Positions 6,261 through 63,788 of a stretch of 64,000 bases of DNA are shown piece by piece. Position 1 is the first letter of the stretch. Every line of letters starts with the position of its first letter. The notes under the pieces are model-generated. The model searched no databases. It had not been told where the DNA came from and saw only the letters and a list, made by a program, of their open reading frames with translations. Position numbers and translations under genes: made by a program. This stretch comes from Streptomyces sp. NBC_01689. Lineage in GTDB: Bacteria; Actinomycetota; Actinomycetes; Streptomycetales; Streptomycetaceae. The stretch is from assembly GCF_036250675.1 (NCBI RefSeq), contig NZ_CP109592.1, forward strand, positions 4,216,001 to 4,280,000. The letters run 5' to 3'.

Positions 6261-7046
6261 ATGCTCACACTTGAGGACGATCTCGGCCGCCTTTCCTACC
6301 TCGTCACCGGAGACGGACCACCCGTCGTGCTCGTGCACGCCGGTGTCGCCGACCACCGCATGTGGGACGAGGTGTGGCCCGGCCTGGCGGAACGGCACAC
6401 CGTCATCCGGTACGACCTGCGCGGCTTCGGCGAGTCCGCGCCACCGTCCGGCCCGTTCCGGGAGACGGACGACCTCCGCCGCCTCCTCGACCACCTCGGT
6501 CACGAACGGGTCCGGCTCGTCGGCGCCTCCTGGGGCGGCCGGGTGGCCCTGGACTTCGTCCTCGCCCACCCGGACCGGGTGCACTCGCTGGCGGTGTTCT
6601 CCCCTCCGTGGCGCGGGTACGACTGGTCCGCCGACATGATCGCGTACGACGAGAAGGAGACCGCGGCCCTGGCCGCCGGTGACCTCGACGCCGCCGTCCA
6701 GGTCAACCTGGACATGTGGCTGCGCGGACCGTCCCGGACCTGGGAGGACGTCGCCGCCGGACTGGCCGACCGCCTCCGCGGCCCGCTCCGGACGTCACTG
6801 GAGAACCAGGACGTCGTGGGAACGCACTCCCAGGGCCCCGCCGCCGGCGACCTCGCGGCCGTCCCGGTCCCCACACTCGTCGGCGTCGGCAAGCTCGACA
6901 TCGAGGACTTCCAGGACATCGCCCGCCGCTACGCGGCCGAGATCCCCGACGCCACCCTCGTCGAGTTCGCCACCGCGGCTCACCTCATCGCGCTGGACGC
7001 ACCCGCCGAACTCACCGCGCTGCTCGTCCCGTTCCTCGCCCGCTGA
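6261..7046 (+). CDS. Alpha/beta hydrolase
   Basis: A 261-residue protein with the standard alpha/beta hydrolase layout. It has an oxyanion strand VVLVHAGVADHRMWDEVWPGLAERH, then YDLRGFGESAPP, the nucleophile elbow VGASWGGRVAL with Ser in G-x-S-x-G, an acid position in PTLVGVGKLDIEDF, and a C-terminal catalytic His in TAAHLIALDAPAEL. It has no signal peptide, so it is cytoplasmic. The usual HG oxyanion motif is HAG here. No ribosome site is obvious, so the ATG may be near the transcript start. Specificity (esterase, lactonase, C-C hydrolase) cannot be told. The preceding gene is a ring-hydroxylating flavoenzyme, but 149 bp separate them and co-transcription is uncertain. Confidence 0.87.
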   Translation: MLTLEDDLGRLSYLVTGDGPPVVLVHAGVADHRMWDEVWPGLAERHTVIRYDLRGFGESAPPSGPFRETDDLRRLLDHLGHERVRLVGASWGGRVALDFVLAHPDRVHSLAVFSPPWRGYDWSADMIAYDEKETAALAAGDLDAAVQVNLDMWLRGPSRTWEDVAAGLADRLRGPLRTSLENQDVVGTHSQGPAAGDLAAVPVPTLVGVGKLDIEDFQDIARRYAAEIPDATLVEFATAAHLIALDAPAELTALLVPFLAR

Positions 7047-7105
7047 GCGGCGTGCGCCACGTGCGCGCCACTCCCGTGTCCCCGGCGCGACGCGGGCACG
7101 GCGGT

Positions 7106-7131
7106 GGCGGCCCGGCGAGGCCGGGGCCGCC
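7106..7131. terminator. Bidirectional hairpin between convergent hydrolase and exporter genes
   Basis: GGCGGCCCGGC, loop GAG, GCCGGGGCCGCC forms a near-perfect 11-12 bp stem with one bulge, midway between two converging stop codons. Confidence 0.65.
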
Positions 7132-7139
7132 CCGCGGCA

Positions 7140-7790
7140 CTACGCGCTGGCGAGCGTCAGCTTGACGGCGAAGCCGAGGAAGAGGGCGCCCGCCGCGGTG
7201 GTGGCGCCCGCGGACAGCCGCCGGCGCCGCCGGAAGGCCTCCGCGAGCCGCGTCCCGCTGAAGATCAGCGCCGTGAGGTAGAGGAAGCTCGCGAGCTGGG
7301 CGAAGGCTCCCAGCACGATGAAGGACAGGGCCGGGTAGGCGTACCCGGGATCCACGAACTGCACGAAGAAGGCGATGAAGAACAGGATCGCCTTCGGGTT
7401 GAAGAGGCTGATGACCAGCGCCCGACGGTAGGGCCGCTCCTCGGCGGCCGACGCCTCGGGGACCTCCTCCTCGACCCGCTGCCGCCGGGTGCGCCACATC
7501 GCCCGCGCGGACCGCAGCATCCCGAACGCCAGCCACGTCAGGTATCCCGCCCCGGCGTACTTCACGATCCCGAAGAGCACGGCGTTGCCCTGCAGCAGCG
7601 AGGCGACACCGGCCGCCGACAGCGTCATCAGCACCGTGTCCCCGCACCACACGCCCGCGGCGGCCGTGTACCCGGCGCGCACACCGCGCCGGGCGGCGAC
7701 GGACAGCACGTAGAGCGAGTTGGGCCCGGGGAGCAGGACGATCAGGACGAGGCCCGCCAGGTAGGTGGGAAGGTCGATGACACCAAGCAT
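7140..7790 (-). CDS. leuE: LysE/RhtB family amino-acid exporter, LeuE-like
   Basis: The ATG at 7790 gives 216 residues beginning MLGVIDLPTYLAG, which lines up with the start of E. coli LeuE; an earlier GTG at 7820 adds ten residues. The protein follows LeuE closely: VLIVLLPGPNSLYVLSVAARRG, AGVWCGDTVLMTLSAAGVASL, then RALVISLFNPKAILFFIAFFVQFVDPG and a final segment near LFLGFAVKLTLAS. Six hydrophobic segments are expected. The family exports hydrophobic amino acids such as leucine, driven by the proton gradient. It converges with the hydrolase gene and is transcribed alone. Assignment to the LeuE subgroup rests on remembered sequence similarity. Confidence 0.85.
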   Translation of the reverse strand: MLGVIDLPTYLAGLVLIVLLPGPNSLYVLSVAARRGVRAGYTAAAGVWCGDTVLMTLSAAGVASLLQGNAVLFGIVKYAGAGYLTWLAFGMLRSARAMWRTRRQRVEEEVPEASAAEERPYRRALVISLFNPKAILFFIAFFVQFVDPGYAYPALSFIVLGAFAQLASFLYLTALIFSGTRLAEAFRRRRRLSAGATTAAGALFLGFAVKLTLASA

Positions 7791-8005
7791 GAGGAGGAGT
7801 CTCGCACGGGGGTACGACACTCCGCGTCCCCGTCTCGCGGTTCAGTCACCGCAGAGGAGCGTGCCCACGGGGCGTTCGAGGGTGACGCCGCCGGACTCCG
7901 GGACCGGGACCCGCGGACCCCGTCCGGAGCTCCCGGGGGCCAGGCGTTCTCACCCGCGCGAAGGAACCGCCGGGCACGGAATCACCGAGCAAGAAGTCGC
8001 CGAAC

Positions 8006-60458: not shown

Positions 60459-61595
60459 TCAGCAGGCGCCGGCCAGGCAGAAGGAGGTCACCGCGGCCTC
60501 CTGGATCTGCCGCTGCTCGGGCCACGACCCGGCAGGTCCCGAGGTGAGGACGACGTACAGCTGACCGCCGCCTGCCGGGATGACCCGGTCCAGCGTGCGC
60601 ACGTCGACCCCCCACTTCCGGCTGGGGTGGGAGTAGTCCAGCTCGGCGGCCTCGCCCCGGGCGTCGGGCACGGAGGTGAGGCTGTTGCGGTGGTAGCCGG
60701 GCACCTGTTTCCTGAGGTCCTTCTCGGCCGCCGTGAGCGTGCCGCGCGGGGTGGGGGCGTCCTCACTGACCCGGAAGACCTGCAGATAGCGGGGACCTCC
60801 GCCGGATTCCCGGAAGAAGTAGATCGTGACGCCGTTCTTGCCGCCCTGCGTCTCCGCCTGCCAGCCGTCCGGTACGGCCGTGCCGAACTCCGCGTTGGAC
60901 ACCCGGTGGTATCCGGTGGGGAGGGCGCTCACCGACGGGGACGCGGAGGTGGCGTCCAGGCTCGGCGCGGGGGTCGGGCCGGAGAGGGACGTGTCCTGGG
61001 CGCTCGGACCCGTGGGCGCGGTGGACACCTTGGTACGGGCGTCGTCCTTGTGCGTGCCGCCGCCGTCCCGGCTCCACACGTACCAGCCGCCGAACCCCGC
61101 GGCCCCGCCGACCAGGAGGGCCACGGTCAGCACCGCCACCACCCGCCGCACCGAGGGCCGCGAGCCGGGTCCCGGGGCGGGAAGCGGCACGGGCGTCGCG
61201 TAGCCCGGGTAGTACGGGGCGGGGCCGGGGTGGAGAACGGGGGCCGGGTACGCGCTCGGCTGACCGGCGCCCGGATCGTGGGCGGCGGCGGGGGCCGAGC
61301 CGGAGCCTCGGCCGGGACCGGAGTCCACCGCGGACCCGGCCCCGCCGGGACCGGCATCGGCGGGGCCGGCCTCGCCGGTGGAACCGGCGCCCGCTCCGGC
61401 GTCGGCAGCGGGGCCTTCGCCCGGCCCCTGACCGGGCGGGGTGGCGGGGGCGGGGGCGGGCGCGGGGCCCGGCGGGTGGACCGGCTCGAACCCCGGGCGC
61501 GGCGGAGGCGGCGGGGTGTAGCGGCCCGGCGGCGCGCCGCCCGTGTCCCAGCTCTGCGTCTCGGCGTTCCAGTGGACCTCGTCCCTGCCCGCCAC
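60459..61595 (-). CDS. Pro-rich single-pass membrane protein, third gene of an unknown operon
   Basis: 378 residues from GTG 61595, 2 nt after the previous stop. A WxxxxxxWD start (DEVHWNAETQSWDTG) and 130 residues rich in Pro, Ala and Gly precede one helix, VRRVVAVLTVALLVGGAAGFGGWYVW. The outer C-terminal domain is compact: YHRVSNAEFGTAVPDGWQAETQGG, VTIYFFRESGGGPRYLQVFRVSED, LDYSHPSRKWGVDVRTLDRVIPAGGGQLYVVLTSGP and a final C-x4-C. The layout resembles the Pro-rich membrane proteins that follow serine/threonine kinases in actinomycetes, but no kinase is here. Function unknown. Confidence 0.78.
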   Translation of the reverse strand: MAGRDEVHWNAETQSWDTGGAPPGRYTPPPPPRPGFEPVHPPGPAPAPAPATPPGQGPGEGPAADAGAGAGSTGEAGPADAGPGGAGSAVDSGPGRGSGSAPAAAHDPGAGQPSAYPAPVLHPGPAPYYPGYATPVPLPAPGPGSRPSVRRVVAVLTVALLVGGAAGFGGWYVWSRDGGGTHKDDARTKVSTAPTGPSAQDTSLSGPTPAPSLDATSASPSVSALPTGYHRVSNAEFGTAVPDGWQAETQGGKNGVTIYFFRESGGGPRYLQVFRVSEDAPTPRGTLTAAEKDLRKQVPGYHRNSLTSVPDARGEAAELDYSHPSRKWGVDVRTLDRVIPAGGGQLYVVLTSGPAGSWPEQRQIQEAAVTSFCLAGAC

Positions 61596-61597
61596 GG

Positions 61598-61975
61598 TCA
61601 GTTCCCCAGCAGCGCGGAGACGGACTCGGCCACCGCGCCCGCCGAGGCCAGCAGCCCGGTCAGCGCTCCGGCGTCCGTGAGGGCCTGCCGGAGCCGGGTG
61701 AGCCGGCTCTGCCCCGCCCGGCCCGACTCCTCGATCTCGGCCTGGGCCACGGCGAGTTCACGCTCCAGCCCGGCCGTCTGACTGCTGGCGACCAGCCGCC
61801 CCAGGTCGGCGCGGAGTTCACGCACCTGGCGCAGCAACTCCTCGTGTGCCTGGTCGCGTTCCGGCGCTCCGGCGCCCGGCTGATTGACGACGTTGTTCCC
61901 GTCGCCGATCGCGAAGGCCCCGCTGACACCGCTGATGTGGATGGATCCTCTTCCGGCGGCCTGCTCGTCAGCCAT
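61598..61975 (-). CDS. Small coiled-coil protein with N-terminal RHIM/BASS-like motif
   Basis: 125 residues. ATG 61975 overlaps the upstream stop by 8 nt. Residues 19-31 are GAFAIGDGNNVVN, preceded by GSIHISGVS. The core I-G-x-x-N-x-V matches the RHIM-type pattern. After a short Pro/Gly linker a heptad-like helix runs from about 42 to 105 (EELLRQVRELRADLGRLVASS, LERELAVAQAEIEESGRAG), and the end GALTGLLASAGAVAESVSALL is hydrophobic. It may oligomerise or assemble with the larger upstream protein, which carries the same motif at its C-terminus. Confidence 0.75.
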   Translation of the reverse strand: MADEQAAGRGSIHISGVSGAFAIGDGNNVVNQPGAGAPERDQAHEELLRQVRELRADLGRLVASSQTAGLERELAVAQAEIEESGRAGQSRLTRLRQALTDAGALTGLLASAGAVAESVSALLGN

Positions 61976-63788
61976 TGCCGTCCCCTCCCGCCCCGTTCGA
62001 CGTGCTCGGTGTGCTCGGTGTGCTCGGTGTGCTCGGTGTGCTCGGTGCGTTCGACGCGTCCGGTGTGCCGGGCGCGCCCGACGGACCCGCCGGATCCGGC
62101 GCCCGGTTCGTGACGACGTTGTTGTCCCCCACGGCGAACGCCCCCCGCGCGTTCTCGATCAGGGTGCTGCCGCCGCTCACGTTGACGACCTTCTGCGCGA
62201 ACTCGTCCGTCCGGTAGCCCGAGTCCTTCAGTACCTGGCGCACGCCCTGCGCGACCCGGTCCTGGACCGACTTGAGATAGCGGGCGACGTCCATGTCCTG
62301 GAAGAGCGAGACGGCCTCCCCCGAGCCCAGCTCGCGCACCGACCGCGCGGGTCCGTCCGGCATCGCCGCGCCGTAGCCGGCGGTGAGGATCCGCCAGCTC
62401 AGCGCCACTCCCCGGGCCACCGTCACGACGGCCAGGGGCGCCGAGCGAGGGGTGCGCACGAGCGCCCACACCGCCTTGCCCAGGGGGCTGTTGTGACGGT
62501 GCTGGTGGGCGACGCGGTCCGCGTTCTCGAAGTCGGCGCGGACCGGCAGCAGGACGTGCGGGGCGATCTCCAGCATCAGCATGCCGCCCTGGGTGTGGAC
62601 CCGGACGAAGACGGTGGTGACGACCTCCTCCTCCCAGCCCCCCACCCGCACCCGCAGGAAGTGCCGGCGGGTCTCCCCGCCCTCCTCGACCGACTCGGCG
62701 CTGTGCGCGACGAACGCGTCCTGGTGGTACGGCGCGAGATCCCGGCGCGGCAGCCCCGCCACCGGCAGGAACACGCACTCGTCGATCTCCAGGCGGCGCA
62801 GCCGGTCCCGGACCGCGCCCCCGGCGTGCGGCGAGGGCAGCCGCAACCGCGCCAGCAGCTCGTGGATCCGGTCGAGGATCACCCGGTTGTTGATGGGCAG
62901 CGGCGGCGTCTCGCGCGCCGGGTCCGGCCGCAGTTCGACGGCGAGGCTCCAGGTGTCGTACGCCCGCCCGGCACCGCAGAAGGGGTGTGCCGCGTGGTAC
63001 ATCACCAGGGGTGAGTGCTGCTCGACGCGGATGCGCTGCCGCAGCCGCTGGAACCGTCGCCCCTCGGCGAGTTCGGCGGGGTCGGCGGCCATGTCGCCGA
63101 AGCGGGCCGGGTGCAGCTCGTGCGCCAGCGCCCGCGCGAACTGACCGCGCTGCAGGGCGACGCACACCGCGACGAGCGCCAGGACGAGCAGCGCGCACCA
63201 GGCGTTGACCGGCCGGATGTGCACCCCGCCGTTCTCGAAGAGCGCCGTCACCAGCGGGGTCGGGAGGATGAGGTCGAAGAACTCGTACAGCTCCTGCTGG
63301 TCCACGGAACCAAAGGCCGCGCGCACCGTCGTGATCGAGGCGTAGACCATGAGGATCCGCCCCGTCCACCGCACCCACCACGCGGGGAACCGCCGGTACC
63401 ACGGGGGACGTTCCTGCGACCCCCGGATCCAGGTGGCGGCGGCGAGGGACAGACACGGGAACAGGAGCGCGATCAGCAGATAGCCGGAGAGCGGGAGACC
63501 CACCACCCACAGTCCCAGGATCAGGGCCGCCCAGCCCAGCTCGATCCGGCGTGCGCGCAGCGCGTGGGCCAGGACGCGTGCCGCGTCGTGTCCGAGCGAG
63601 GGGGCCGCGAGCCGCTCCTCGTGGACGTACAGCTCTTCGATCACCGCGTCGCGGTAGCCCGCGTCCAGATAGGCGCCCGCGCAGAGCAGCCGGGTCGCCT
63701 CGCTCGCCCCGGGCGGCACACCCGGTTCACCGGGCACCACGGTCCGTGGCGGCCGAGGCTGCTGAGGTAACTGGAATGTCTGCGTCAA
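61968..63788 (-). CDS. Large membrane protein with C-terminal RHIM/BASS-like motif
   Basis: 606 residues from TTG 63788, with GGGGGAG 5 nt upstream. The N-terminal part is helical (LLCAGAYLDAGYRDAVIEELYVHEERLAAPS), helices follow at about 80-110 and again near WWVRWTGRILMVYASI and WCALLVLALVAVCVAL. The middle is a soluble domain (VMYHAAHPFCGAGRAYDTWSLAVELRP; RRLEIDECVFLPVAGLP; VTTVFVRVHTQGGMLMLEIAPHVLLPV). After QKVVNVSGGSTLIENAR comes the motif GAFAVGDNNVVTN (about 549-561), then a Ser-Thr-Pro tail coded by a 9-bp repeat. No known enzymatic domain was recognised. Two downstream genes overlap or nearly abut. Confidence 0.8.
   Translation of the reverse strand: MTQTFQLPQQPRPPRTVVPGEPGVPPGASEATRLLCAGAYLDAGYRDAVIEELYVHEERLAAPSLGHDAARVLAHALRARRIELGWAALILGLWVVGLPLSGYLLIALLFPCLSLAAATWIRGSQERPPWYRRFPAWWVRWTGRILMVYASITTVRAAFGSVDQQELYEFFDLILPTPLVTALFENGGVHIRPVNAWCALLVLALVAVCVALQRGQFARALAHELHPARFGDMAADPAELAEGRRFQRLRQRIRVEQHSPLVMYHAAHPFCGAGRAYDTWSLAVELRPDPARETPPLPINNRVILDRIHELLARLRLPSPHAGGAVRDRLRRLEIDECVFLPVAGLPRRDLAPYHQDAFVAHSAESVEEGGETRRHFLRVRVGGWEEEVVTTVFVRVHTQGGMLMLEIAPHVLLPVRADFENADRVAHQHRHNSPLGKAVWALVRTPRSAPLAVVTVARGVALSWRILTAGYGAAMPDGPARSVRELGSGEAVSLFQDMDVARYLKSVQDRVAQGVRQVLKDSGYRTDEFAQKVVNVSGGSTLIENARGAFAVGDNNVVTNRAPDPAGPSGAPGTPDASNAPSTPSTPSTPSTPSTSNGAGGDGNG
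62002..62046. repeat. 9-bp GTGCTCGGT tandem repeat, 5 copies
   Basis: Five perfect copies encode the Ser-Thr-Pro tail just after the shared motif in the large membrane protein. Slippage stays in frame and would change linker length. Confidence 0.9.

Follow-up and report, generated by a model that had tools for sequence, protein, structure and literature searches.

A coevolving motif pair in a Streptomyces membrane protein family and its exchangeable partner proteins

The locus described here lies in a window of 64,000 nucleotides (the whole stretch of DNA analyzed) from Streptomyces sp. NBC_01689 and poses a simple question. Why do a large membrane protein and the small protein encoded next to it carry nearly the same short motif, one near its C terminus and the other near its N terminus? 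A sequence-only reading had taken the motif for a RHIM-like amyloid sequence and the two genes for a possible pair of the kind known from bacterial amyloid signaling (BASS) systems. The genes and motif copies concerned are the following.

61968-63788, minus strand: LARGE, a membrane protein of 606 amino acids and the presumed receptor
61598-61975, minus strand: SMALL, a protein of 125 amino acids and the presumed effector or adaptor
60459-61595, minus strand: THIRD, a proline-rich protein of 378 amino acids with a single hydrophobic segment (residues 152-170)
62106..62144, minus strand: first copy of the motif, at residues 549-561 of LARGE, GAFAVGDNNVVTN (residues 540-561 for the longer match)
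61883..61921, minus strand: second copy of the motif, at residues 19-31 of SMALL, GAFAIGDGNNVVN (residues 10-31 for the longer match)

The LARGE and SMALL genes overlap by 8 nt and the THIRD gene follows after a 2-nt gap, all three on the minus strand, and the coordinates agree with the arrangement first described. The motif had been given as 13 residues long. Its positions in both proteins were correct, but its length was not, as the alignable stretch of the window pair is longer (LARGE GSTLIENARGAFAVGDNNVVTN versus SMALL GSIHISGVSGAFAIGDGNNVVN; local score of LARGE tail against SMALL head, 59) and the matched stretch has a median length of 29 over the pairs. No library that we searched gave LARGE, SMALL, or THIRD a name above its cut-off. 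A Pfam scan of LARGE returned zero matches at E ≤ 10, the window SMALL matched neither PNP_UDP, EAD1, nor DUF5955 in Pfam, and defense models returned zero matches to the window proteins. About 20 residues past the motif, the end of LARGE carries Pro-Ser-Thr repeats (PSTPSTPST; window 61995-62048), which are encoded by near-perfect tandem DNA repeats.

We assembled 138 loci, 80 of them chosen by LARGE alone (the best 80 of 226 relatives, all Streptomyces) and 58 others, of which 57 came through SMALL and one was the window's own. The search model for the SMALL domain was built without the motif, and a SMALL was counted if it lay within 900 nt downstream of LARGE on the same strand. The LARGE core was present in 137 of the 138 loci, and 136 of those 137 had a SMALL domain downstream. 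The exceptions were L043, which has no LARGE core, and L051, which has no SMALL-domain match by the rule used; in L051, a SMALL was seen beside a frame-broken LARGE. SMALL adjoined LARGE in 80/80 loci picked through LARGE alone. Homologues that keep one protein without its motif partner, named beforehand as evidence against a pair, were absent from these 80 loci, although 8 of the 48 further loci described below had no matching partner by the threshold used there.

Removing seven repeated pairs from the 136 left 129 distinct pairs, and in each of these we aligned the tail of LARGE with the head of the SMALL beside it (BLOSUM62 local score). The mean cis score was 72.4 (n = 129), compared with 45.0 ± 1.1 for permuted partners; the maximum in 10,000 permutations was 50.7, and none reached the cis value. 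Shuffled tails gave a mean of 28.0 and a 95th percentile of 37.6, which was exceeded by 128/129 pairs, and the claim of a motif shared between the C terminus of LARGE and the N terminus of the neighboring SMALL held on this measure. The single pair below that percentile was L075, where the LARGE reading frame has just 157 amino acids. The motif type varied across loci and agreed inside each locus, as in L154 (VHIGRADNSSFAFGDHARAET with VSIGRADNSSFAFGDHARAET), L060 (VNVEGGVHGSTFAVGKNATASS with VSISGGVHGSTFAIGSHAHAES), L073 (VFVQAMSGGSVATGPHGSATSHN with VHIGSMSGGSIATGSHGSAYSVN), and L123 (GNISGSNNNVAAG with GDISGSNNNVAAG). A locus's own SMALL beat its mean trans score in 128/129 cases and was the unique best match for 18/129 LARGE tails (best or tied for 24). 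It was seldom the unique best because related loci have a common motif type. Specificity of the motif appears to go by type and not by locus.

Relatedness among loci could itself produce agreement of this kind, and we compared the scores against a tree of 123 LARGE bodies minus their tails (six LARGE bodies were left out). Trans similarity, scored between the LARGE of one genome and the SMALL of another, dropped with tree distance from a mean of 88 (distance of <0.05) to 38 (>1.2). Over this range, these loci kept cis means of 72 to 88. We then contrasted cis with trans scores using tip pairs with non-overlapping tree paths. At a distance of ≥0.2, 29 of these tree-disjoint contrasts went up, 8 went down, and 1 was tied (p = 4e-4). 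Other distances gave up/down/tie counts of 31/12/15 (0.02), 35/10/4 (0.1), 19/5/0 (0.4), and 9/1/0 (0.8). From these comparisons, the LARGE and SMALL copies of the motif appear to change type together, beyond what relatedness gives.

The published RHIM core is described as G-(I,V)-Q-(I,V)-G in the parts of PMC7885112 that we used. We found G-[IV]-Q-[IV]-G in 0/129 pairs on either side, most pairs lacked the N-x-V part, and Pfam RHIM had no match to the window proteins; a RHIM identity of the motif, as first proposed, was rejected on these three counts, and judged by this core the motif is neither PP nor BASS3. The looser RHIM-type core I/V-G-x-x-N-x-M/V fared better in the window than in the family, with [IV]GxxNx[VIML] present on both sides of the window pair and of 29/129 pairs overall. 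The likeness of the window pair to a RHIM appears to be one among many motif types.

To look beyond close relatives, we hand-picked 48 further loci, many of them Streptomyces: 37 regions from 97 match rows (rows may coincide in a locus) and 11 found earlier. Here the LARGE tail was compared with every downstream reading frame, and a match was a score of ≥44 that also lay above an antisense control, a threshold set post hoc. A matching downstream frame was found in 40/48 loci. When all 48 were permuted using a fixed downstream region, the cis mean was 68.6 versus 34.8 ± 1.5, and the own partner was the unique best match in 24/48. The eight loci without a match were L213, L257, L265, L275, L276, L283, L284, and L285. 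In L213 a motif-like tail was present with the partner absent, L257 had a motif-like tail (GVLVERSSAPVHGVAVGHGD) with no matching downstream frame, L283 encoded a short LARGE, and L265 scored 36, below the threshold, though its EAD1 partner is clear. The other four are LARGE paralogues without a tail, having neither a motif nor a matching partner. One of them lies in the window's own genome.

G000:C1:7691957-7693408: L275, a second LARGE homologue without a motif tail, with counterparts in many Streptomyces genomes

These paralogues can be seen as a natural control, and they show that the LARGE fold also exists free of motif and partner. The BASS-like trait proposed for the window, a pair-conserved motif at opposite protein ends, was borne out by the 80/80 LARGE-chosen loci, the correlated evolution, and the 40/48 further loci.

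The partners in the further loci were not all of one kind. Four (L214, L216, L263, and L265), all in genomes of family f18, carried EAD1 (E of 1e-13, 4e-14, 8e-15, and 2e-14, respectively). Eight (L267-L274), all in genomes of family f17, belonged to the PNP_UDP_1 phosphorylase superfamily (E of 1e-16 to 1e-24), and all eight matched the PADLOC model “Effector, PN-superfamily.” The L268 partner, the only one compared with the PDB, matched MTA/SAH nucleosidases (9e-9). Ten other partners were scanned, of which one passed the DUF5955 cut-off and the others had weak or no matches. DUF5955 has a Pfam gathering score of 27.1 bits; the L251 partner reached 27.6 bits, above that score, and 21/48 members of the SMALL family matched weakly (best E, 4e-4). 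Two tandem motif copies preceded the helical domain in L191, L192, L194, L199, and L201 and, by reading, in L200 and L266. Taken together, the body of the partner appears to be swapped behind a matching motif, being small and helical, EAD1, or of the PNP/UDP phosphorylase superfamily. No NLR domain was found among six distant LARGE-like proteins scanned. In L216 (6322-8189), the LARGE gene is split over reading frames, yet its tail matches the motif-EAD1 partner. A motif-free DUF5955 protein in the window's own genome (L174; G000:C1:2826993-2827253) distantly resembles the helical part of SMALL.

AlphaFold models of LARGE and SMALL both had a mean pLDDT of 69. In LARGE, helices were predicted at residues 69-100, 105-122, 130-158, and 193-224, followed by an alpha/beta part at about 260-526 (with helices 435-468 and 495-522) and a disordered tail at 532-606 (pLDDT of <50), in which the motif block had a pLDDT of 30 to 34. 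A simple hydropathy scan passed three windows of 19 residues, of which two overlap (82-113, 194-212), and this leaves the count of membrane passes uncertain. In SMALL, residues 1-4 and 6-36 had a pLDDT of <50, so the motif copy is disordered in the model, and four helices followed at 42-60, 65-84, 89-103, and 106-124 (blocks with a pLDDT of 68 to 88). A common beta-helix or pentapeptide-like fold with no pair conservation had been named as an outcome that would speak against the proposal; in the monomer models neither motif lay in a predicted beta-helix and both were predicted to be disordered. Neither copy is folded in the monomer models, which suits a segment that folds upon assembly but is no proof of amyloid. 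LARGE residues 264-526 weakly resemble lipid- or ligand-binding helix-grip folds (Z mostly 6 to 7.7) and KA1 domains, a modeled likeness that could point to the sensing of a ligand or lipid.

LARGE has at least 975 relatives at E ≤ 1e-3, and among the best 120 listed, those with a named organism were Streptomyces. SMALL has 26 homologues at the same cut-off; its profile matched 63/150 Streptomyces genomes and 13/246 genomes sampled from the class, and three of these 13 belong to other genera. When a LARGE profile was made from divergent members, it matched 50/296 genomes and 19/114 genera of the class, the tail-less paralogue included. Among 68 LARGE-selected loci with enough sequence, 41 had a tblastn match to THIRD downstream and 51 had the short W...W signature of its N terminus. 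L218 is different, as its third gene opens not with W...W but with a stretch that resembles a zinc ribbon and scores below Pfam cut-offs. Around the operon, the 5′ neighbors, recognized by eye, are presumably malate dehydrogenase and folD, and the 3′ neighbors are presumably betaine-aldehyde and choline dehydrogenase (L089, L094, and L128 fully; L170 partly); the divergent locus L074 has neighbors unlike those of L089, L094, and L128. The setting in the inspected Streptomyces loci is one of housekeeping-type genes with no evident defense island, which counts against a defense role. Near the LARGE-like pair in both L195 and L212, the opposite strand carries what look like genes for a von Willebrand A protein and for a protein kinase.

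By their sequences, LARGE and SMALL are a real, widespread, coevolving motif pair. It is fairly probable, in our judgment, that they form a receptor-effector (or receptor-adaptor) pair joined by a homotypic self-assembly motif. Counting against this reading are the downward contrasts on the tree, specificity by type, the local copying taken up below, and the further loci that gave no match. The parts of this reading differ in strength: homotypic coupling of LARGE with SMALL is very likely, signaling to an effector is likely, defense or cell death in filamentous actinobacteria is slightly favored as the purpose, and amyloid-type assembly of the motifs is evenly balanced. In the scheme that we propose, LARGE would be a membrane protein whose alpha/beta domain and motif tail face the cytosol, and it would provide location and probably sensing. 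A stimulus would cluster LARGE, the clustered tails would nucleate a beta-arch, amyloid-like stack, and the stack would recruit and template the motif at the N terminus of the partner, which forced clustering would then switch on. A helical partner might cause membrane damage or act as a scaffold, a PNP partner would destroy nucleotides, and an EAD1 partner would recruit further EAD1 proteins. We infer the membrane sidedness, the trigger, the order of events, the activity of the partner, the cross-beta structure, and the killing. The best clue to purpose comes from the swapped partner domains: Detocs defense uses PNP effectors, fungal PNP_UDP effectors are coupled to NLRs, and EADs have been put forward as adaptors in conflict systems.

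Agreement between two neighboring motif copies might also be kept up by gene conversion or local duplication of neighboring segments, with no physical interaction between the proteins. Copying does occur. We called a pair converted when it had at least 10 identical residues and at least 80% identical codons at them, and 23/127 pairs had this look at the motif (L075 and L053 were left out). Near-identical motif DNA was found between the two genes in L274 (79/81) and L271 (63/66), whose partner genes are as follows.

6878-7825: partner gene of L271, with a motif copy near-identical to the upstream LARGE tail
6826-7734: partner gene of L274, with a motif copy near-identical to the upstream LARGE tail

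Protein similarity in these two loci stops near the motif borders, which points to recent local copying, and in L274 this drop counts against a match kept by copying without interaction. The window pair had 8/14 codons identical at identical residues and no sign of recent copying. With the 23 converted-looking pairs removed, the signal was unchanged (cis, 72.5 versus permuted, 46.4 ± 1.2; n = 104), and the same codon was used at identical four-fold residues in 689/1212 cis cases (0.568) versus 0.529 ± 0.015 in trans (L075 and L053 left out). Nor is a neutral process expected to retain the motif in nearly all pairs. We conclude that local copying occurs yet does not appear to explain the covariation signal, and a match kept without physical interaction is very improbable; copying may instead be the route by which new motif variants reach the partner.

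A physical interaction need not involve signaling. The tail and head could co-fold constitutively as a beta-roll, a beta-helix, or a short oligomeric stack that tethers SMALL to LARGE at the membrane with no templating or switching. The motif is short, G-rich, and alternating in pattern, and its A-x-G repeats, we presume, recall the heads of trimeric autotransporters. Correlated evolution would suit any homotypic interface, and the lack of a fold for either segment alone in the AlphaFold models is also expected of a co-folding one. However, unrelated partner bodies, PNP and EAD1 among them, sit behind this kind of interface, and signaling amyloids are described, in the portions of PMC9815663 and PMC12881547 available to us, as having strongly diversified motifs for which specificity is suggested; we regard constitutive docking as unlikely. 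Slightly less probable still is a module of the cell envelope that serves structure or transport and includes THIRD; the motif would then drive a membrane complex to assemble, and defense would play no part. The housekeeping-type neighbors, the one hydrophobic segment of THIRD, and the weak helix-grip likeness of LARGE would all fit such a module. They must be set against the patchy presence of SMALL among Streptomyces genomes and against the PNP and EAD1 partners found elsewhere, domains described as effectors or adaptors of conflict systems in the parts of PMC7159879 and PMC11249213 used here.

We return to the receptor-effector reading. A matched pair with immune-type partners in its relatives suggests an alarm-and-response system that works without the usual type of sensor, and LARGE-SMALL is probably an NLR-independent homotypic signaling system with exchangeable partner domains. 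A bolder version, which we hold tentatively, is that of a new actinobacterial immune or cell-death superfamily, in which the amyloid tail of an NLR-free multi-pass receptor templates a plug-in effector and the motifs are matched by selection together with local gene conversion. The fast-evolving motif and the kinds of effector that this version would have plugged in (helical killer, PNP nucleosidase, and EAD1 adaptor) are equally tentative. If the system is as proposed, a large unannotated family of Streptomyces membrane proteins would gain a function. The family also offers more than 100 naturally occurring pairs, diverse in motif type, from which rules of specificity could be derived, and its PNP and EAD1 partner domains are already linked to immunity or conflict.

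A literature search found nothing that, in the parts of the sources available, evidently describes the LARGE-SMALL family, and several known systems resemble it in part. With RHIM, PP, and BASS3 motifs, the window pair and the 29/129 pairs noted above share GxxNxV after a hydrophobic-G stretch, whereas most pairs bear other types (STFAVGSHASA, NSSFAFG, SGGSVATG, and more). EADs have been proposed to act as homotypic adaptors in conflict systems (PMC7159879, in the part consulted), and EAD1 occurs in four of our partners; here, however, the motif-EAD1 protein adjoins a LARGE-type membrane family, an arrangement not found in the consulted parts of two eLife papers on EADs. PNP effectors are described as cleaving ATP in Detocs phage defense (PMC11249213, in part). 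The likeness to Detocs and other PNP defenses lies in the PNP-superfamily effector, which the PADLOC matches of 8/8 PNP partners suggest, and the difference is that the window itself has no PNP. In fungi, NLR-PNP_UDP pairs (PUASM/HRAM-like) are described as coupled by such motifs, with peptides that formed fibers and one side that formed prions (PMC9815663, in part). Like L267-L274, they combine a PNP_UDP effector and a receptor in adjacent genes with a matching motif. They differ in having an NLR as receptor and in the place of the motif, which the fungal enzyme carries at its C terminus and ours at its N terminus; the window SMALL has no PNP domain. The BASS1-10 systems (NLR and Bell pairs; Dyrka et al. 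2020) we set apart by their published description, as far as we had it. The BASS receptor is an NLR and LARGE is a predicted multi-pass membrane protein; the NLR carries its motif at the N terminus and the effector at the C terminus (PMC7889193, in part), whereas LARGE, the presumed receptor, has a C-terminal motif and SMALL an N-terminal one, the only arrangement that we compared in pairs. The helices of SMALL are known from prediction and are not equated with the Bell domain. With BASS, in turn, the LARGE-SMALL pairs share neighboring or overlapping genes, a short matching motif placed at opposite ends of the two proteins, a variety of motif types, repeats at times, a small helical partner, and a home in filamentous actinobacteria.
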